Positions 9,679 to 41,558 of a stretch of DNA of 41,558 nucleotides are shown here, piece by piece. Position 1 is the first letter of the stretch. Each line of letters starts with the position of its first letter. The stretch is from Chloroflexota bacterium (GTDB lineage: Bacteria; Chloroflexota; UBA6077; FW602-bin22; JACPRP01), in assembly GCA_023480885.1 (NCBI GenBank), contig JAMCWX010000055.1:1-41558 (forward strand), read 5' to 3'. The translations under genes and the position numbers were made by a program. Under the pieces are notes generated by a model, which was not told the origin of the DNA, did no database searches, and was given only the letters and a program-made list of their open reading frames with translations.

Positions 9679-12513
9679 TCATTCCGTCATATTCTGCGTC
9701 AGGGTATCCCGTATATCGCCCGGCTGATAGGCTACTGCCCATCGCCAGGGTCCGAAACCGCCGTGCGCATTCACCGCCCGTACCCATTCGTCCAGGTAGC
9801 GACGTTTGACCCGATCCTGCTCGGTGTCCTGGCCCTTGGTTTCCAGAACCAGCATATCGCCGCTGGCAAGGCGAACAAGAAAGTCGGGCCGGTATTTGCG
9901 CACGACGCCGTGGTAGACGTACAACACCTCGAACCCCAGATGATCGTTCTTCGCCCAGGCGACGACCTGGTCGCTGCCATCCAAGACAAAGGCGTCCGAT
10001 GCCTCCCAGGTGCTATCATACACGCAGACGTTGATGTGTGATTTGCGAGTCCTCTCGCACGGTCTACCGGTGTACCAGGTCCGCATTCCAGCCGTGGAAC
10101 CGATCGGGTGGTCGCAGTCGAATACAGGCACCGACTGTTCGGTATTCTCCTGCCGCACCGCCTCCCAAATGTGCTGCACCACTCGCGACATATTGAGCGT
10201 GATGATGAGGCGGCGGGGCAGCTCATCCTGATAAAACAGCGGCGGATGAATTGCAATCCGGTCCGACTGAATGAACCGCTCTGCAAATCGCACCAACTGC
10301 GCCAGCAGCATCTCGCGACTACCGCGCCAATCGTGCTTCATCTGGTCGAACACGTCGCGCGCCGTCTCGAAAATGATGCGCTGGGTGCGGAACTCCCGCG
10401 CCAGCCGCTCCAATTCGATGCGGTTGATCTTGGTCACGTCCGGCTTGCCCTCGATGATGGGAGCCAGTTCCGCCACCTGAGCGGTGTGTGCCGCGTCCAA
10501 CTCCAGAGGACGGACTTTCGCCCAATCCAAGATCAGCGTGCGTTGAAACACGCGGTCAATGCGCACCACATTGGGCCAGCGAATCTCAAACCTGGCCTTG
10601 GCGGGGTCCGGCTCAACGGCAGTCTCAGGACTCGGCGGTGGGGGCGGACCGTCCTGCCCACCTTCGTGAGGGAGAAAGGTGAACGGCACACCAAAGATGT
10701 TGACGTACTCCGGCTCGAACAGGCCCGTTTCTGGAGCGGTCTCGTATGACGTGCGCCGAAGGCCGCGTCCCACTACCTGCTCGCACAACAACTGGCTGGT
10801 GAAGGCGCGCAGGCCCATCACGTGCGTCACCGTCTTGGCGTCCCAACCCTCACTAAGCATCCCCACCGAGATGACGTTCTGGATTTTCTCACCCGGTTCA
10901 CCGGGCTTGCCTACGGTGTCGACCGTGAGGCGCAGGCGCTCGGCCTGTTGCGTCTTGGTCAGCTTAGGCCCGACCCGCTCGGTCTCAGTTTCCGTCTCAC
11001 CCTCGCCCTCGGAAGCTTCCGCCGCCACGACCGGCTCCTCTAGCGCCTCCGCCTCGTTGAGCACCTTGGAGTCGATGTGCAGGATGCGCTCCGGGTCCGA
11101 CAGTTCGTCTATGTGAATGCGCTTTGAATCGAAGGCGTGCTTGATGCGCGCCGCCGTCTCGGTGCGATTGCAGACCGTGATCATCACCGGAGGGGTGGAG
11201 AGCCCAGCTCTATTCCAGACTTTTTGCGTCTCGCGCCAGTCGTAGCCCAGCAGATAGTAGGCGTTGAGCACCAGGTCAGGCAGTGGCTCGTGGGGCTCAG
11301 ACCGGCGGTTCAGATCATCCTTCACGTCCGGGTCGTTGTATATGTGATAGAGGCGTGACTTGTAGGTCTTGGCGTCGGGCACGGCGTCGTCGCGCACTAC
11401 CACGCGAGGGGTCTTGACCAGTCCCGATTCGATGGCGTCGTTCAGCCCAAAGTCGCTGACGATCCAACCGAACAACGCTTCCTCGCTGCTCTTCTTTCCT
11501 GATGGGGTGAAGGGAGTGGCGGAGAAGTCATAGCAGGTCAGGATGCGCCGTGAGCGGTGCAGACGGTCCAGCCCGCCGATCCAGACTGTAGCTTCCTCGG
11601 CGCTGTCCTTGAGATCACGCTGGCGCAGGTACTTGCCCTCCGCCTCCCAGTTCACTCGCCAAGCATGGTGGGCCTCGTCGTTGATCACCAGTAGGTTGTG
11701 GGCGTTCGCCATCTCGCCCAGCACATCACGAGTGTAGGCCTCATCGCTCTTGACGCCGCGCTTGTCCACGGTGCGGCGCTTTCGTACCTGCTCGCCAGTT
11801 TCCCATGCCAGGGCATGCCAGTTGCGCACCAGCACCTTGCCCTGGCGCAGCTTGTCCAGGAGCGCGCTGGGCACGACGCGAAACGACTCGTAGTAATTGC
11901 CCGGAGCCGATAGTCCCAATACCGATAGACGCTTCCTGACCGTCAGCCCCGGCGCGATGACCAGCACATTCTTAGAGAAGCGGGCATCCTGCGGATAGGT
12001 AACCTTGTTGAGGATGTGCCAGGCGATGACCATTGCCATAACGATGGTCTTGCCAGAGCCAGTGGCCATCTTGCAGCACTGGCGCGCGAACGCGCCACCG
12101 TCGCCTGGAATCTCAATGCCTACACGCTCGGCCGCTGGTGCTTCGGTCAGCCAAATGAGCGTCTCCACTGCCTCCAGTTGGCAGAAGAAGAACCGCCGCG
12201 TCTCAAACTCCTCAGGGTCGCACCAGTGCTCCAGCAGGCGCTTGGTTATGCTGCTCACGCCCGGATATCCCGCCTCGCGCCAGGCCTTGACACGCGGGCG
12301 AATCCGGTTAACCAGTTGGATTTCAATGAAGATGCCGGGGTCGTCGAAGGCCCTGGAGTTCTGCGAGGCCACCACGTAACCCGCGGGGCGCCGCCCCTCC
12401 ACCAGGTCGAAGAGCCGCGTCTCGCGATCGTAGCGCCAGTGGCGGTCAGGCTCCTGGTAGGGCGAGTTGATGATGAGGCGGTCGATAGCTGCCTGTCCCG
12501 TTTGGGTAACCAT
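9679..12513 (-). CDS. Type III-like restriction subunit: DEAD/DEAH helicase with PD-(D/E)XK nuclease
   Basis: 944-residue restriction subunit of the operon. Walker A ATGSGKT is at 150-156, the DEAH box (VINDEAHHAW) at 279-282, and FSATPF is helicase motif III. The helicase C region has MLSEGWDAKTVTHVMGLRAF and QVVGRGLRR. The C-terminus has a nuclease motif YRPDFLVRL then LVLETKG (D877, E891, K893), a PD-(D/E)XK site. This layout matches Res-type enzymes that translocate and cut DNA together with an adenine methyltransferase. ATG start with AGGA upstream, eight bases after the DUF2283 stop. It is the last gene of the operon, and all motifs look intact. Confidence 0.9.
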   Translation of the reverse strand: MVTQTGQAAIDRLIINSPYQEPDRHWRYDRETRLFDLVEGRRPAGYVVASQNSRAFDDPGIFIEIQLVNRIRPRVKAWREAGYPGVSSITKRLLEHWCDPEEFETRRFFFCQLEAVETLIWLTEAPAAERVGIEIPGDGGAFARQCCKMATGSGKTIVMAMVIAWHILNKVTYPQDARFSKNVLVIAPGLTVRKRLSVLGLSAPGNYYESFRVVPSALLDKLRQGKVLVRNWHALAWETGEQVRKRRTVDKRGVKSDEAYTRDVLGEMANAHNLLVINDEAHHAWRVNWEAEGKYLRQRDLKDSAEEATVWIGGLDRLHRSRRILTCYDFSATPFTPSGKKSSEEALFGWIVSDFGLNDAIESGLVKTPRVVVRDDAVPDAKTYKSRLYHIYNDPDVKDDLNRRSEPHEPLPDLVLNAYYLLGYDWRETQKVWNRAGLSTPPVMITVCNRTETAARIKHAFDSKRIHIDELSDPERILHIDSKVLNEAEALEEPVVAAEASEGEGETETETERVGPKLTKTQQAERLRLTVDTVGKPGEPGEKIQNVISVGMLSEGWDAKTVTHVMGLRAFTSQLLCEQVVGRGLRRTSYETAPETGLFEPEYVNIFGVPFTFLPHEGGQDGPPPPPSPETAVEPDPAKARFEIRWPNVVRIDRVFQRTLILDWAKVRPLELDAAHTAQVAELAPIIEGKPDVTKINRIELERLAREFRTQRIIFETARDVFDQMKHDWRGSREMLLAQLVRFAERFIQSDRIAIHPPLFYQDELPRRLIITLNMSRVVQHIWEAVRQENTEQSVPVFDCDHPIGSTAGMRTWYTGRPCERTRKSHINVCVYDSTWEASDAFVLDGSDQVVAWAKNDHLGFEVLYVYHGVVRKYRPDFLVRLASGDMLVLETKGQDTEQDRVKRRYLDEWVRAVNAHGGFGPWRWAVAYQPGDIRDTLTQNMTE

Positions 12514-12521
12514 TTCTCGTC

Positions 12522-12734
12522 CTAGCTCGCTTTCGGGACTGATTCGAACAAGAGCCGCCGAATGTCGGCCTGCGGCGCCCGCTTCGATAGGTGCAGCAGC
12601 TCGATGCCGACGACGCGGCCCCGTTCGTCGTAATCTACGATGATGCCGGGTGAGAGCTCCTCGGAACTGACGGCGGGCGCTTCACTGAGGGTCAGGTACA
12701 GTGCATCGGCCTGTTGATCCACCTTGAGCTTCAT
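12522..12734 (-). CDS. DUF2283-family small protein, putative antitoxin
   Basis: 70 residues beginning MKLKVDQQADALYLTLSEAP and containing SPGIIVDYDERGRVVGIELL, the hallmark of the DUF2283 fold. Members often sit next to a DUF4258 gene, and the pair is a proposed toxin-antitoxin module; that role is inferred from genomic association. The ATG overlaps the DUF4258 stop by four bases. Its unusual feature is position: it lies between the methyltransferase and nuclease genes of one restriction-modification operon and will be co-translated with both. Confidence 0.82.
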   Translation of the reverse strand: MKLKVDQQADALYLTLSEAPAVSSEELSPGIIVDYDERGRVVGIELLHLSKRAPQADIRRLLFESVPKAS

Positions 12735-12979
12735 GGGATGCTTCTCCTCCGATCAAAGAATGCCGTTACAACTCGCATCGGTTTGCTGCTCCTGTTCACG
12801 ATCACCCGCAGGACACGATCGCCCTTTTCCTGAATCCGCGCCAGGCGATGCTCCAGATCGGGATCTATCGTATCGGCCTCGGTTGCCTCCGGCGCGCTCA
12901 ATGCGCGTTCAATCCACGCAAGCGGAATCTGCCGCTTTTCTAACACGTCCCGAGCATGCTCTGTCAATACGTATTCCAT
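12731..12979 (-). CDS. DUF4258-family small protein, putative toxin
   Basis: 82 residues with LTEHARDVLEKRQIPLAWIE near the start and KPMRVVTAFFDRR near the end, the pattern of DUF4258 proteins (RelE-like in general shape). The ATG lies three bases after the methyltransferase stop, whose last codons provide a GAGGGTGAGGG ribosome binding site. The four-base overlap with DUF2283 indicates coupled translation. Toxic activity is inferred from the pairing only. It may instead be a regulator or accessory factor of the restriction system. Confidence 0.8.
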   Translation of the reverse strand: MEYVLTEHARDVLEKRQIPLAWIERALSAPEATEADTIDPDLEHRLARIQEKGDRVLRVIVNRSSKPMRVVTAFFDRRRSIP

Positions 12980-12982
12980 CCC

Positions 12983-15900
12983 TCACCCTCGCTCGGTAAG
13001 GTCCATCACCTTCAGGCTCTCGATGCCCCGGTCGTCAACTATCTTGACGGCGATGCGCCGGTGCTCGCCCGGCTCGAAGGGCAGCGATTCCGTGCCCCGG
13101 TAGGCTTCGATGAGCTCCTGGTCTATCTCCGCCTTCAGATTGCGGGCCAGCTTGGCCCAGCCCTCATCAGCACCAGCCATCGGGAAGAAGACCTGGCGGG
13201 GGAACAGGCTGCGCCCGTCGTAGTCGGTATCGAGCAGCCAGACCGCTATCCTGTCCTTGCCGCTCGACTCAATCCCGCCCGTCTTGGTGTTATAGTAGTC
13301 AAAGCCCTCGACGGCGACGCGCCACTTGCCTATATGTTCCCCTTCGGTGATTCGTTCTAGCCACACGTCCGGCTGGCCAATGAGCCAGAATGACTCGTTG
13401 CTGGCCCGCTTCTTCTTGAGATCGTCGGTCAACAGGTCGGCGTTCATCTGCACTTTGAGCAGAGTGACGCCCGGCCAGTTTGTCTGGTCGATGTCCTTGG
13501 CCGCCTCGGGATCGAACTGGAACGCGGCGAAGACCACCAGCTTGGGCCTGGGCACCAGGGTCTCCGCCTCTTCGATGGCCCGCTCCACCTGGCGTTGCTC
13601 CAGAGGAGCGTGCTCTGGACCGAACGAGACGACGACGCGCTGGGAGGCATACGCTGTCCCCTCCTCGCGAACGGTGCGGCTCCCCTCGGCGCTGGGACGG
13701 GTCTCGCCCTCGGCGTGCAGCCAGCGACAGCCGGGCAAGGGTTCCAACCGCGCAAAGCGCATGTACTGCTCGGCCTTGCCGCGGATGCCAGTCCGCAGCA
13801 GTTCGTCCCGCCATTCGGCCTGGCGCAGCGTCTCGCCGGAACGCGCAATGGACGTGTCGGCAGGCTGCGGCGCACTCTCGAGAAGCTCGTCCACCGACTT
13901 CACGGCCGGTGCAGGCCCGGCCTCAACCGTGAACGGCCCGCTCACCCGCACCTTCTTGCGGTCGACATAGGGCTGATCGTAGAGCGTCTCCAGGTCGGCG
14001 TGCCTGGCTATGGCTTCGTCCATTTCCTTCTGCATTGCTCGGCGAGCGGTGTGGAAACCCTGGAAAGGCTCGCGGGCACCTTCAGGCCAGTCTTCGGGAA
14101 ACTCAAAGGGAACCTCCCACTCCAGAAGCGCGTTGACAGGTGCCTCCTGACCGGAGGGCATTCGATAGGTCAGGCCGTCGGACGCGGCGAAGTCGACGAT
14201 CTGGCCAGCGCGTCCGCCTTGCGTGACCTTGAACTTCCCCGTCTGGCCCTTGAGCGCAGCGTTGAGATCGGCCAGAGCCTGCTCGATAGCCGGGTGCATG
14301 CGAGCGTAGATGCCGTCGATCTCAGGGTTGTTGGCTATGGACTTGAGCGTGATATGCGGCACGGTCTTGTACTTGAAGCCGCTGCCCACGCCCTCTTCCG
14401 GGTGCGCCAGCTCGTAGTAGTCGAAGACGGCAGCCATCAGCCGCTGCCTGGCCAGTGTGATGGCGACCCGAGATGTGTCGCAGGTGATCCAGCGGCGTCC
14501 CCACTTCTCGGCGACATAGGCGGTAGTTCCCGAGCCGCAATTGTGAACAACGCAAACCTCCGTGATGAACGAGTGCGCATCCTCGATCTCCAGATCGTAA
14601 ACCTCTTCGTCAGTGTACTGGAACTCAACGGATTCAACCGCCACCGCTGCACGCTCTGCGCCGAAGAAGACCAGGTCCCCTGGTTGAATCCTTGCTGCCT
14701 GAAGCCATTCCGCCCCCTCAAGGCTTTCCCTCCGCAGCTTGCATTGGCTTTGAATCGCCAGGCACACTCCCCCGAGATTCTCCGCCACCTCTTTCGCGGT
14801 GAACCTGAGCACATCGATGCCAATCGAGCGCATATAGGTATCGCGCTGGGCATCATACTCGACTTCATCCGGCTCGAAGTGCGTGGCGCCATCTACCTCC
14901 ACGACCAGATGCGCCTCGCGCGAGTAGAAGTCCGCGATATAGGGACCGATAGGATGCTGACGGCGGAATTTGAAGCCAAGCTGCCTGCTGCGAAGGGCTG
15001 CCCAGAGCCGTCGTTCGAGAGCGTTTGCCTCTCGGCGAAGCTGTTGCCGCCGCTCTATGTGCCCAACAGGGCTCGCGCTCCAATCCCGCTGGCCACCCAA
15101 GGTGCGCGGGCGAGGCTTACATAGGATTCGATGGTCGGCTGTGAGCCAAAGGGTCTGGCGATTCAGGGCGTGGCGAATGCCGATCATCAAGCCCCTGTAC
15201 GGCCGGCGGATGACCCGTAGCACGCGGTGCAGGATGCCATCGTGCCCGAAGATGAGATTGCCTGGCTGAATTTGATCGATGGCGACGATTCGGCATCCCA
15301 CCTGCGTGACACGTTGGGCGTTGCCTCTTTCGATCTCCCCCGCGGACGGGGCGTCCCCCCTCCTAACCTCCCCCGTGGACGGGGGAGGAATGTAATGGTC
15401 TCGCGCGGACGGGGGAGGAATGTAATGGTCGCCCGTGGACGGGGGAGGAATGTAATGGTCGCCCGTGGACGGGGGAGGAATGTAATGGTCGCCCGTGGAC
15501 GGGGGAGGAATGTAATGGTCGCCCGTGGACGGCGGAAGGACGGTTTGCTTTCCGACGGATGGGAGATGAGCAGCATACTTCACCGCGGACAGTGGAAGAA
15601 CGGGCTGCTCGTAACCCCCTCCTCCATCCACGGGTTGTCCAGCGCTTCCCTCCCCGCCCGCGGGGAGGGCTAGGGTAGGGGCCAAAACCCCCGTCCCCTT
15701 CCGAACACACGTCGGGTCAAACACCAGGTCGCCGGGATCGGTAGTCATGAGGATGCAACGCTCGATGACCTTCGTCGCAGTTTGCACAACGTAGACCTTT
15801 GGATCTGTTCGGCTTTGAACACTGGCGAAATCAGACCAAACATTACCCCGCACGTAGGCGGGGAAATCGTCTATATAGCGAATGTAAGCTAGCGCCCGTC

Positions 15901-17044
15901 CCTCATCGGCAATACGGCCCGCCCGAATGAGCCTCTGCATCCCGCCCTGGTTGGTTTTCCAGAACCCAAATCGCGGTCTGATACTCCTGCCATTGAACCC
16001 CACCGCGAATGCACTATTTTCGCCTCCGCTCTGCGATGTCAAGGTGTCGAGACGGAACCGTCTCCCTCCTAGAGGGGTGGCGCTGTCAAGCGCTGCCACC
16101 GAGGTCGTCTCGCCAGATTCCAGAAGTACTTTGGTATACTTTGAGGCGCCCGCCCCACCGGCTGACTTAACCTCATAGAGCTTACGGTATTGGACGCCAG
16201 CCTTATCCCGGGCATACCAGACCACGTAGTCGCCCACCGAAGGCGCAAGCTCGCTCGTCTGGCTGCTCGTTGTAACGAACGTGATCAACGCCACGAAGTT
16301 CCCTGCCCCAAACACCTCATCCATCAACTCGCGCACGTGGTGCACGTTCTCATCCCCGATCTGCACGAAGATGCTGCCCGATTCGCTGAGCAACTCGCGG
16401 GCCAGCAGCAGGCGGTCGCGCAGGTAGGTGAGGTAGGAGTGGATGCCCAACTCCCAGGTGTCGCGGTAGGCGCGGATCTGCTCTGGCTCGGCGGTGAGGT
16501 CCTCGTCCTTGCCGTCCTTCACGTCGCGCTTGTTGACGAAGGGCTGGAAGTTGGAGCCGTACTTGATGCCGTAGGGCGGGTCGATGTAGATCATCTGCAC
16601 CTTGCCCGCCATGCCCTCTTTCTCGAGCAGCGAGTTCATCACCAGCAGGCTGTCGCCGGCAATAAGACGGTTGCTCCAGCCGTGAGGGTGCTTGTAGAAC
16701 TCGACCGCTTCGCGAAGTGGTTCCTTGCGCTCGGTGTCAAACAGGGATAGCTGCACCGGGCCACCGTTGCCATTGCGCTTGCGCACCGCCTCGACGATCG
16801 TGCGCGGATCGATGCGCTCGTGGACGTGCAGCGAGACCGGGGGCACCTCGAAGGAAGAGTGCTCGGCCTTGCCCGCCCAGATCAACTGTGGGTCCAGATG
16901 AGGGTCGTAGGCATACGTTTTCTTTTTGCCGGTCTCAGGGTCGGTCTCTGAGGTCACCAGTCCCACGGGCGGGTTGTTGACCCGCGTTTTGTCCCGATGC
17001 TCGTATTGCTCTATGTCCTTCCTCTCCTGTCCAGGCGAAGCCAT
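12983..17044 (-). CDS. Site-specific DNA (adenine-N6 type) methyltransferase interrupted by an intein
   Basis: Modification subunit of the operon. The beta-class order is seen: catalytic DPPY (MIYIDPPYGIKYG, 155-158) comes before the SAM motif. That SAM motif is split: residues 442-445 (FDPT) are separated from CGSGTTAYVAEKWG (836 on) by a 390-residue intein with Cys1, a terminal His-Asn and a Cys +1. After splicing the motif would read DPTCGSGTT and the enzyme would be 963 residues. The C-terminal half (about 490 residues) is probably target recognition and partner contact. ATG start with AGGTGG upstream. Without splicing the SAM site would be destroyed, so methylation, and safety from the restriction subunit, depends on the intein. 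Confidence 0.9.
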   Translation of the reverse strand: MASPGQERKDIEQYEHRDKTRVNNPPVGLVTSETDPETGKKKTYAYDPHLDPQLIWAGKAEHSSFEVPPVSLHVHERIDPRTIVEAVRKRNGNGGPVQLSLFDTERKEPLREAVEFYKHPHGWSNRLIAGDSLLVMNSLLEKEGMAGKVQMIYIDPPYGIKYGSNFQPFVNKRDVKDGKDEDLTAEPEQIRAYRDTWELGIHSYLTYLRDRLLLARELLSESGSIFVQIGDENVHHVRELMDEVFGAGNFVALITFVTTSSQTSELAPSVGDYVVWYARDKAGVQYRKLYEVKSAGGAGASKYTKVLLESGETTSVAALDSATPLGGRRFRLDTLTSQSGGENSAFAVGFNGRSIRPRFGFWKTNQGGMQRLIRAGRIADEGRALAYIRYIDDFPAYVRGNVWSDFASVQSRTDPKVYVVQTATKVIERCILMTTDPGDLVFDPTCVRKGTGVLAPTLALPAGGEGSAGQPVDGGGGYEQPVLPLSAVKYAAHLPSVGKQTVLPPSTGDHYIPPPSTGDHYIPPPSTGDHYIPPPSTGDHYIPPPSARDHYIPPPSTGEVRRGDAPSAGEIERGNAQRVTQVGCRIVAIDQIQPGNLIFGHDGILHRVLRVIRRPYRGLMIGIRHALNRQTLWLTADHRILCKPRPRTLGGQRDWSASPVGHIERRQQLRREANALERRLWAALRSRQLGFKFRRQHPIGPYIADFYSREAHLVVEVDGATHFEPDEVEYDAQRDTYMRSIGIDVLRFTAKEVAENLGGVCLAIQSQCKLRRESLEGAEWLQAARIQPGDLVFFGAERAAVAVESVEFQYTDEEVYDLEIEDAHSFITEVCVVHNCGSGTTAYVAEKWGRRWITCDTSRVAITLARQRLMAAVFDYYELAHPEEGVGSGFKYKTVPHITLKSIANNPEIDGIYARMHPAIEQALADLNAALKGQTGKFKVTQGGRAGQIVDFAASDGLTYRMPSGQEAPVNALLEWEVPFEFPEDWPEGAREPFQGFHTARRAMQKEMDEAIARHADLETLYDQPYVDRKKVRVSGPFTVEAGPAPAVKSVDELLESAPQPADTSIARSGETLRQAEWRDELLRTGIRGKAEQYMRFARLEPLPGCRWLHAEGETRPSAEGSRTVREEGTAYASQRVVVSFGPEHAPLEQRQVERAIEEAETLVPRPKLVVFAAFQFDPEAAKDIDQTNWPGVTLLKVQMNADLLTDDLKKKRASNESFWLIGQPDVWLERITEGEHIGKWRVAVEGFDYYNTKTGGIESSGKDRIAVWLLDTDYDGRSLFPRQVFFPMAGADEGWAKLARNLKAEIDQELIEAYRGTESLPFEPGEHRRIAVKIVDDRGIESLKVMDLTERG
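14540..15709 (-). mobile_element. Intein with DUF559 (Vsr-like) nuclease domain inside the methyltransferase
   Basis: 390 codons in frame. Block A begins CVRKGTGVLA; the Hint fold resumes at GCRIVAIDQIQPGNLIFGHD. Block B is LTADHRILC (T190, H193). Block F is EVYDLEIEDAHSF (H379). Block G is VCVVHN followed by Cys +1 of the extein. Between blocks B and F, about 217-322, lies a DUF559-like domain (LERRLWAALRSRQLGFKFRR, GPYIADFY, LVVEVDGATHF), a PD-(D/E)XK/Vsr-related nuclease likely to act as homing endonuclease, with D260, E271 and D273 as candidate catalytic residues. Residues 11-136 are a low-complexity insert made largely of 10-residue repeats. All splicing residues appear intact. Confidence 0.9.
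15368..15540. repeat. 30-bp tandem repeat, in frame within the intein
   Basis: Five near-identical 30-base units plus partial copies. They contain the palindrome CCTCCCCCGTGGACGGGGGA-GG (22 bases, complete at 15368-15389). On the coding (minus) strand each unit encodes PPPSTGDHYI. Decayed units extend to about 15600, and a related CCCTCCCCGCCCGCGGGGAG palindrome lies at about 15648-15670. The period is exact and the 'spacers' identical, so it is not a CRISPR array. Confidence 0.85.
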
Positions 17045-17291: not shown

Positions 17292-17522
17292 ATGCTTGAG
17301 CTCAAGGAAGCTTTCATTTCCAGTTCGGAAGCAGCGGCGATTTTGGGCTTGCGTCCGTTCGGCATTCAGAAGCTTATCAGGCGCGGGAAAATCCCCGCCG
17401 TCAAGATCGCTAACCGTTGGCTCATCCCCAGAGCCTTTGTGGAAGAGTTCGCTAAGAGCTACGTCCCCAGGAGGGGCAATCCCATATGGCGAGAGCGGGC
17501 CACAAGGAGGGAACAGAAATGA
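17292..17522 (+). CDS. Excisionase-type HTH DNA-binding protein
   Basis: 76 residues with SSSEAAAILGLRPFGIQKLI and RRGKIPAVKIANRWLIPRAF, the MerR/excisionase-like winged helix (HTH_17 pattern). AAGGAG lies eight bases before the ATG at 17292; a longer frame from 17244 has no such site. The stop overlaps the recombinase ATG as ATGA. Such small proteins act as directionality factors or regulators of the recombinase they are coupled to. The divergent restriction-modification operon starts 250 bases away, so it might also bind there, which is speculation. Confidence 0.8.
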   Translation: MLELKEAFISSSEAAAILGLRPFGIQKLIRRGKIPAVKIANRWLIPRAFVEEFAKSYVPRRGNPIWRERATRREQK

Positions 17523-18652
17523 GGGCAGCGCTTTATTGCCGGGTAAGCACAGACCTACAGGAGAAAGAGCAGACCATCCAGAGCCAGGTCGAGACTCTGC
17601 GCAAATACGCTTACGACAAGGGGTATGAGGTTGTGGCCGAGTTCCTTGACGATGGTTACTCTGGCGCAACCCTGGAACGTCCCGGACTCGACCGCCTTCG
17701 CGATGCCCTCCGGTCTGGAGAGTTCGAGGCGGTGCTGGTACACTCCCCCGACCGCCTGGCCAGAAAAGCCGTCTACCAGGGCCTGCTCCTTGAGGAACTA
17801 GAGAAGGCAGACGTCAGGATCGAGTTCCTAAACCACCCGGTGGACGACAGCCCGGAAGGGAAGATGCTCTTGGGTATGCAAGGTCTCTTCGCGGAATACG
17901 AGCGGGCCAAGATCGCTGAGCGGGCTCGTAGAGGCAAGTTGCATTGGGCTAGGCAAGGCGCCGTCTTCACCGGTTTCGTCCCTTACGGCTATCGCTACCT
18001 CCCTCGCGATGGGGAGCCCAACCGAAAGTCTGGGATGGAGATCGATGAAGCCCAAGCCGCCACGGTTCAGCAGATGTATCGCTGGCTCATAGAGGAACGC
18101 CTCTCCTGTCGCGCCATCGCCAAGCGGCTCACGGAGCTAGGTATACCGACTTGCACGGGCAAGACGCGGTGGCGGCCAAGCACCGTCAACCAGATACTGA
18201 AGGACGAGGTTTACAAGGGCACCTTCTACTACAATCGCGGGCAATCGGTGGAACCGACCCGCCCCTCTCGGCAGAACCCCTACCGCAAGCACAAGCTCAC
18301 GGGGCGGAAGCTGCGACCTCGGAACGAGTGGATTCCCATCCCTGTGCCCGCCATCGTCGACGAAATCACCTGGGAAGCAGCCCAACGTCAGTTGCGCGAG
18401 AACTCCCTTTATTCCCCGCGACATAACACCCACCATTCGTACCTGTTGCGAGGTCTCATACGCTGCCCTCGGTGTGGAGGTGCTTATGTCGGCGGCTTTG
18501 CTCGAGGTCGCCGGTACTACCGCTGTAGTCGGACGGAGCCCTTGGCAGCCAAAGATGGGTGTGTTGTCGTGCGGGGCGTATCGAAGCTGAACCCGTGGAG
18601 GAGGCGGTCTGGAGCGCCATTTGCGAGGCTCTGCAAAAACGCGAGCTGTTGA
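17519..18652 (+). CDS. Large serine recombinase, C-terminus frameshifted
   Basis: Resolvase/invertase catalytic domain with the nucleophile in ALYCRVSTDLQE (Ser10), then VLVHSPDRLARK and FAEYERAKIAERARRGK. A recombinase domain follows (RAIAKRLTELGI, TVNQILKDEVYKG), then half of a zinc ribbon (IRCPRCGGAYVGG). AAGGAGG lies eight bases before the ATG, which overlaps the HTH gene. After the second Cys region the frame goes astray near 18563 and ends in a meaningless tail. The missing coiled-coil part is found in the two other frames downstream. The enzyme as encoded lacks its C-terminal segment and may be inactive unless these are sequencing errors. Confidence 0.88.
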   Translation: MRAALYCRVSTDLQEKEQTIQSQVETLRKYAYDKGYEVVAEFLDDGYSGATLERPGLDRLRDALRSGEFEAVLVHSPDRLARKAVYQGLLLEELEKADVRIEFLNHPVDDSPEGKMLLGMQGLFAEYERAKIAERARRGKLHWARQGAVFTGFVPYGYRYLPRDGEPNRKSGMEIDEAQAATVQQMYRWLIEERLSCRAIAKRLTELGIPTCTGKTRWRPSTVNQILKDEVYKGTFYYNRGQSVEPTRPSRQNPYRKHKLTGRKLRPRNEWIPIPVPAIVDEITWEAAQRQLRENSLYSPRHNTHHSYLLRGLIRCPRCGGAYVGGFARGRRYYRCSRTEPLAAKDGCVVVRGVSKLNPWRRRSGAPFARLCKNASC

Positions 18653-24872: not shown

Positions 24873-25003
24873 ATGGTGTCTAGACGTAGCTATTCCTCTT
24901 TCATAATGCCTACGGGGTTAGCTGACGGATTCGGGCGAAAGAGCTACCCTACTTGCCCCACTGCAAGATTCACCCCACTTGGTTGGTTCCCCCGCTCCCG
25001 CTG

Positions 25004-25075
25004 AGCGGCCCAGTGAACGGTCCATTGAGCGGTCCAATGAACGGCCCATCAAGCGGCCCAATGAGCGGAATTAGG
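25004..25075. repeat. 12-bp minisatellite
   Basis: Six degenerate 12-base units of the type AGCGGCCCAATG, alternating AGCGG and AACGG starts. It is in the gap between the regulator-like gene and the histidine kinase. In one frame it would read GP-rich tetrapeptides, but no credible gene contains it. Confidence 0.7.
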
Positions 25076-41318: not shown

Positions 41319-41558
41319 CGAAGCCCACGCTCACCACGGAGGCACGGAGACACGGAGTGTTGGTAGATAGAGAGATAACACAAGCTATCTTGAATAGCGA
41401 TGCCCACACTCACCACGGAGACACGGAGTGTTGCTAGATAGACAGATAACAGAAGCTACCTTGAATAGCAAAGTCCACGCTCACCACGGAGACACGGAGA
41501 CACGGAGTGTTGCTAGATAGACAGATAACAGAAGCTACCTTGAATAGCAAAGTCCACT
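41313..41558. repeat. Tandem array of 79/71/79-bp units
   Basis: Units begin GAATAGCG or GAATAGCA at 41313, 41392, 41463 and 41542; the last is cut by the window end. Each contains CTCACCACGGAGACACGGAG, then GTGTTGCTAGATAGACAGAT. The 8-base length difference equals one GGAGACAC unit. Confidence 0.85.

Follow-up and report, generated by a model that had tools for sequence, protein, structure and literature searches.

A DNA methylase gene of a Chloroflexota bacterium is interrupted in methylase motif I by a full-length intein with a DUF559 nuclease domain of the homing type. Judging from sequence comparison and structure prediction, this intein very probably splices and homes, and the palindromes lodged in its first splicing block appear to belong to a class that accompanies DUF559 genes elsewhere.

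Intein boundaries, splicing motifs and predicted fold

The methylase ORF (12983-17044, minus strand; 1353 aa; Pfam N6_N4_Mtase, 2.3e-24) lies in a window of 41,558 nucleotides, the whole stretch of DNA analysed here. Its intein of 390 aa runs from C1 (residue 446, codon start 15709) to the last Asn (residue 835, codon end 14540), and the exteins together amount to 963 aa once it is removed. At the junctions, DPT/CVRKG ... VVHN/CGSGTT, methylase motif I (the SAM motif) is split directly ahead of its Cys. The class 1 intein signature is present (C1, block B TxxH, terminal HN and Cys at +1), and C1, T190/H193 (block B), H379-S380-F381 (block F) and H389-N390 (block G) were invariant in a four-relative alignment. 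The features are listed in Table 1.

Table 1. Features of the interrupted methylase gene and its neighbour, with further loci in which DUF559 cassettes or their insertion site were read
Feature	Position or locus	Strand	Evidence
N-extein, methylase residues 1-445, with DPPY motif, ending ...FDPT	15710..17044	-	ORF, Pfam, junction reading
Intein, 390 aa, C1 to terminal Asn	14540..15709	-	junctions, alignment, empty sites
Intein block A, first half, CVRKGTGVLAP	15677..15709	-	alignment; pLDDT 92 over residues 1-10
Repeat-derived insert read in frame within block A, residues 12 to ~136 (approximate end); disordered in the prediction	15302..15676	-	alignment, pLDDT
Palindrome CCCTCCCC-6-GGGGAGGG with C-rich tail	15648..15669		hairpin scan
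Tandem array, period 30 bp, 5.5 copies	15372..15536		repeat search
Palindrome CCTCCCCC-6-GGGGGAGG at one array end	15367..15388		hairpin scan
Intein block B, TADH	15131..15142	-	alignment
DUF559 (Vsr/EDxHD-like) nuclease domain	14741..15052	-	Pfam, PDB profile search, Foldseek
Intein blocks F and G, EVYDLEIEDAHSFITEVCVVHN	14540..14608	-	TIGR01443, alignment
C-extein, CGSGTT to methylase end including stop	12983..14539	-	ORF, junction reading
BPTD_3080-family restriction endonuclease, NF046055, 1161 bits (cut-off 800)	9679..12513	-	profile match
MetH-like loci with linker read	L043, L045, L048, L274-L303		
Other long ORFs with in-frame DUF559, of which several were judged by eye to be DNA methylases	L033, L038, L039, L040, L041, L042, L046, L047, L050, L051, L053		

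The DUF559 profile matched ORF residues 665-768 (Pfam; E 8.9e-30; 103.2 bits, cut-off 20.6), and the C-terminal intein model TIGR01443 also scored above its cut-off (27.3 vs 15.6 bits). Pfam Intein_splicing (PF14890) stayed below its cut-off (22.5 vs 35.8 bits) and covered the last 38 residues only; of the Hint and DUF559 profile matches that the initial annotation had anticipated, those to DUF559 and TIGR01443 were obtained and that to Intein_splicing fell short. An N-terminal intein model was absent among the profile matches to the ORF, consistent with the interruption of block A by ~125 foreign residues. By alignment, the DUF559 domain, which we take to be related to Vsr, is located between Hint blocks B and F, where the homing domains of inteins lie.

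AlphaFold2 was run on a four-row alignment of the intein. The model had a mean pLDDT of 60.5, with residues 1-10 at 92 and residues 14-136 nearly all below 50. Beyond residue 136 it consisted of Hint strands (good confidence), a DUF559-like stretch (middling confidence) and the last Hint strands. A Foldseek search with the model returned 3hrl as the top match (2.7e-4), followed by intein and intein-like domains (E from 3.1e-4); the match to the intein-type structure 6rix had a TM (target) of 0.69 and an E value of 0.028, and I-Bth0305I (3r3p) was found with a probability of 1.00 and a TM (target) of 0.77, but with an E value of 0.053. In a sequence-profile search of the PDB, 3hrl (1.2e-24) and the KlbA intein (2.1e-5) were matched. 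The profiles, the AlphaFold2 model and Foldseek support the reading as an intein of Hint type that carries a Vsr-like DUF559 nuclease. Together with the junctions and motifs they agree with the initial annotation, which had placed such an intein at the position directly preceding the SAM-motif Cys and whose figures of 390 and 963 residues were right to the base.

Two small genes between the methylase and the restriction gene (12522-12979), one with DUF2283 and one with a weak, BrnT-like DUF4258, resemble a toxin-antitoxin pair. A serine recombinase gene (Resolvase and Recombinase domains; 17486-18652, opposite strand) lies beside the restriction-modification genes. Elsewhere in the window, a c-di-AMP riboswitch at 24891-25020 was the sole Rfam match at the gathering threshold, and a tandem repeat of ~79 bp occupies the window end (41342-41557).

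A repeat-derived insert in block A

The boundaries of the intein had been exact in the initial annotation, which missed that residues 12 to ~136 are repeat-derived and not intein fold: block A holds translated palindromes and a 30-bp tandem array. Both palindromes belong to a hairpin class with a pyrimidine left arm, which we defined on examples of the same phylum and then fixed at 8-bp stems; 7-bp stems were used for the comparison of seven intein inserts and for the MetH survey below. Within the 41.5-kb window, the class was found nowhere else than in these two palindromes. The exact stem of the intein palindrome occurs at one place in the host genome (G000), at two in G019, at three in G002 and at none in G294, and the whole insert matched itself alone in G000 (E ≤ 0.001). 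By these two counts, of exact stem and of whole insert, the palindrome lacks the high genomic copy number of REP elements; the inserts do contain short palindromes, single or paired, as in REP/REPIN. Because the class is confined to the intein within the window and the insert matches only itself in the genome, host repeat noise is disfavoured as the sole source of the insert.

A GC-rich insert sits at the identical point in all seven inteins (that of the window and the six relatives described below). G002 has one palindrome pair, and repeats with periods of 30, 33, 36, 42 and 183 bp are present in others of the seven. Five of the seven contain a perfect pyrimidine-arm hairpin of at least 7 bp, those of G412:C10 and G425 being imperfect (by eye), and the reading frame is kept through the insert in six. 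Because they share this insertion point, the seven inserts may go back to a single old event, with turnover since then. We infer that the palindrome insert is tolerated in the intein since it falls in the loop between the first two Hint strands.

Palindromes accompany free-standing DUF559 genes

We determined the density of the hairpin class around 40 free-standing DUF559 genes (open frame ≤307 aa, not at a contig edge), taken from the first 40 matching genomes. The density was 1.54 per kb within 600 bp of the genes (73 hairpins in 47 kb) vs 0.07 per kb beyond 2.5 kb (34 in 466 kb). The corresponding values were 0.06 and 0.02 per kb for the mirror class, and 0.49 and 0.33 per kb for all other hairpins. 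At least one palindrome was present within 600 bp at 28 of the 40 loci (21 on both sides, 5 upstream only, 2 downstream only), and none within this distance at the other 12. Within 1 kb, we counted 39 palindromes upstream and 35 downstream. The chance of at least 28 of 40 at the background rate is 1.5e-21, a figure that ignores the definition of the class on examples from the same phylum.

When equal windows were compared, the class was present at 16 of 20 DUF559 loci, at 0/25 HNH loci, 0/23 RAYT-like loci and 1/26 ParE loci; this comparison left out loci on short contigs (5 HNH, 7 RAYT-like, 4 ParE, 6 and 7 DUF559), and its DUF559 loci from the phylum search overlap the 40 loci. Two class-level searches gave 24 DUF559 loci, eight of them from genomes outside the first 400, and these sets are not independent. 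The RAYT-like loci carried 1.63 other hairpins per kb, which is in keeping with RAYT's own REPs. In the host genome G000, whose assembly is 88.7% complete, no Y1_Tnp match was found (E ≤ 0.001), and a RAYT as the present mover in this genome is therefore disfavoured.

The association extended to plasmids of Deinococcota, Alphaproteobacteria and Cyanobacteriota. Across 12 DUF559 loci, chosen from 36 records for genus spread, the density was 1.18 per kb near the gene vs 0.095 per kb far from it, with at least one palindrome at 9/12; L174, L175 and L178 had no palindrome of the class. None was found near L002 either, the second and weak DUF559 match of the host genome (24.4 bits). The plasmid gene of L172 has a short DUF1156 ORF on one side and further ORFs on the other, that of L173 lies between NAD(P) transhydrogenase subunit genes, and that of L174 adjoins a DUF1156 gene, settings which might resemble that of a free-standing homing gene.

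Stem distance was correlated with nuclease distance among the 28 palindrome-bearing loci (Mantel r 0.46). After GC and family the coefficient was 0.37, and when both members of a pair came from different families it was 0.30 (p 0.0002 in each of the three tests, the floor of 5000 permutations).

The palindromes could nevertheless be ordinary host terminators or repeats, with a nearness to DUF559 that is meaningless for the nuclease. REPs are known inside genes (PMC3733652, in its available part), and members of the class also occur away from DUF559, both among the 34 hairpins in the far 466 kb and at L132, L136 and L137, where palindromes are present and DUF559 was not seen by eye. We consider this explanation unlikely, since ordinary repeats would not account for the palindromes on both sides of the gene at 21 of 40 loci, their similar numbers upstream and downstream, their scarcity at the control genes, the restriction of the class to the intein within the window or the covariation of stem with nuclease that persists once GC and family are accounted for. 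At L136 (G019:C37), a 3-kb locus without visible DUF559, a palindrome of the same stem type as that of the intein lies at 1501-1522 between methylase-like and helicase-like ORFs.

Relatives of the intein

To find relatives, we queried 400 genomes of the phylum with the last 249 residues of the intein. This query matched 130 genomes, mostly via the DUF559 domain, and full-length intein relatives with 48-52% identity were found at the identical site in G019, G002 and G294. Searches of two further classes (29 and 158 genomes) added two intein copies in G412 and one in G425, giving six further inteins of this kind with a patchy spread. The intein of G412:C155 occupies the matching motif of a distant methylase: its core is 54% identical to that of the window, vs 32% for the exteins.

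Three of the six relatives look damaged. The intein of G002 lies in a 430-aa ORF, the frame of G412:C10 is broken in the insert, and the intein of G425 is without C1 and the terminal HN. This damage, and the ~125 foreign residues in block A, would be expected of a decaying intein in which the repeat insert spoilt block A, so that it no longer splices and leaves the methylase inactive. For the window, we find such decay distinctly unlikely: the splicing motifs are all intact and the frame of 1353 aa is open, and insert, splicing motifs and open frame coexist in G019, G294 and G412:C155 too.

DUF559 cassettes within other proteins

DUF559 was also found between translated palindromes in long ORFs, namely in MetH-like proteins, DUF1156-like and other methylases and a RecQ-like helicase (hosts assigned by eye); a Hint domain was not seen in these ORFs. 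We surveyed the MetH-like linker in one family of the phylum, where 30 of 47 matching genomes were read and the host was named by eye. Nineteen of the 30 loci were without a palindrome, three had palindromes only, and eight had palindrome, DUF559 and palindrome in frame (one of the eight cut by the contig end). DUF559 was accompanied by palindromes in 8/8 of these loci. The three states of the linker look like non-autonomous and autonomous forms of one element.

Alternatively, DUF559 could serve in repair or defence as a Vsr-like domain rather than act as a homing nuclease: its fold resembles that of Vsr-like nucleases, to which it is presumably related, and stand-alone copies are common. This would, however, leave its place between Hint blocks B and F, the place of homing domains, and its in-frame presence in hosts as unrelated as MetH and methylases to be explained, and we regard it as very unlikely.

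Empty sites and distribution of the methylase

The phylum search for methylase relatives matched 59 genomes, and the intein site was read at 30 loci. Twenty-seven were empty, 26 with the exact motif DPTCGSGTT and one with the variant DPTCGSGTS; two were occupied (the window and G294) and one was cut off. The intein-free homologues that the initial annotation had suggested searching for were thus found, with the motif at the same site. L084 and L085 were empty with the exact motif, and L086 was empty as DPTCGAGTT. G019 has one occupied and one empty methylase. In a Deltaproteobacteria MAG (L004, one relative from a single-sequence search of genome contigs), the methylase is uninterrupted with the exact motif (best segment 60% identical), and a restriction-like gene lies downstream. 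Among 331 plasmid records with relatives, no place covers 80% of the query, as expected if the intein is absent there. In-frame repeat stretches were also seen off the intein site, in the C-terminal parts of the methylases of L084 (methylase of G109) and L008/L037.

Three intein-bearing methylases were included in a tree of 34 and stood in three separate places; its supported branches require three changes, perhaps a single gain with two losses. The absence of the intein from most relatives read and the scatter of its bearers on the tree fit a mobile parasite. One scan of viral contigs gave no relative, and phage records gave three partial matches of less than 60% identity; these results disfavour a viral origin.

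DNA recognition by Res generally depends on Mod in type III systems, a rule which may not extend to the BPTD_3080 family. Where it holds, loss of Mod should silence restriction too, which casts doubt on the initial annotation's premise of a paired nuclease that remains dangerous. Its further proposal, that splicing times methylation relative to restriction, is scarcely credible: the intein does split the SAM motif and the precursor should therefore be inactive, but nothing found here suggests conditional splicing, 27/30 of the relatives' loci manage without the intein, and Res probably depends on Mod.

Discussion

The published sources compared here were available in part, and statements on them apply to those parts. 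Inteins are known in conserved regions of phage DNA methylases, where they are patchy and have moved between divergent methylases (PMC9957025). The intein of the window is alike in its conserved methylase region, its patchiness and its transfer between divergent methylases, whereas the phage methylase inteins described in the available text carry LAGLIDADG; the intein of the window has DUF559 and, in block A, an insert with palindromes. The EDxHD homing family includes I-Bth0305I (PMC3943268) and, according to PMC9403480, a gene that contains DUF559; the predicted fold of the DUF559 domain of the window resembles this family (3r3p, at the Foldseek values above). The review describes EDxHD enzymes as phage-derived intron nucleases (PMC9403480), in contrast to the domain described here, which lies inside an intein.

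REPs inside genes and their RAYT partners are known (PMC3733652), and REP/REPIN elements with RAYT transposases have been described further (PMC3116915, PMC2817692). They likewise are short palindromes, sometimes paired, sometimes inside genes and beside a mobility-type gene. Their partner is RAYT, however, whereas here it is a DUF559 nuclease, the class was seen at none of 23 RAYT-like loci, and the exact stem occupies a single place in the genome. Rickettsia palindromic elements share the in-frame insertion into protein genes (PMC3733652), but the DUF559 palindromes often enclose a DUF559 domain. The ShiLan domain is a phage methylase insertion read in frame without splicing domains, which hides an out-of-frame HNH (PMC11855218); it resembles the in-frame DUF559 insertions without Hint, and differs in that DUF559 is in frame and has palindromes, in the window also with a Hint domain. 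In one genome, an intein and REPs are both named, with no tie between them in the available text (PMC5896051). Within the open-licence literature, we found no report of an intein carrying REP-like palindromes, and no title or abstract tying DUF559 to palindromes. Methylase inteins, the EDxHD assignment of a DUF559 gene and REPs in genes were thus already known, and the palindrome-bearing intein and the tie between DUF559 and palindromes would, within that search, be new.

Our preferred reading is that of a splicing and homing intein. The intein would splice out after translation, restoring DPTCGSGTT; its DUF559 nuclease would cut intein-free alleles, and repair of the cut allele would copy the intein in. 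The palindromes are probably what DUF559 nucleases act on or through, and could serve as substrate, landing site or mobile end. Beyond this, we see an even chance that DUF559 nucleases and the pyrimidine-arm palindromes cognate to them make up a novel kind of mobile system. In it, a REP-like element would be partnered not by an HUH transposase but by a Vsr-like nuclease that recognises its own stem type. Such recognition would explain the covariation of stem and nuclease. The system would comprise the palindrome alone, cassettes of palindrome, DUF559 and palindrome between or inside genes (MetH, methylases), and the intein with palindromes in its Hint loop.

The partnership of DUF559 and palindrome, which rests on association and covariation, may be a larger finding than the intein. 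Pfam labels DUF559 a 'protein of unknown function', yet the domain is common, as the 130 matching genomes among 400 indicate. If the association holds, it would give this family a testable role, and it supplies a candidate driver of GC-rich palindromes, the movement of which is otherwise unexplained. The intein would be a compact case in which to study splicing, cutting and palindrome recognition, and it illustrates how a nuclease and its repeats can ride inside working genes.
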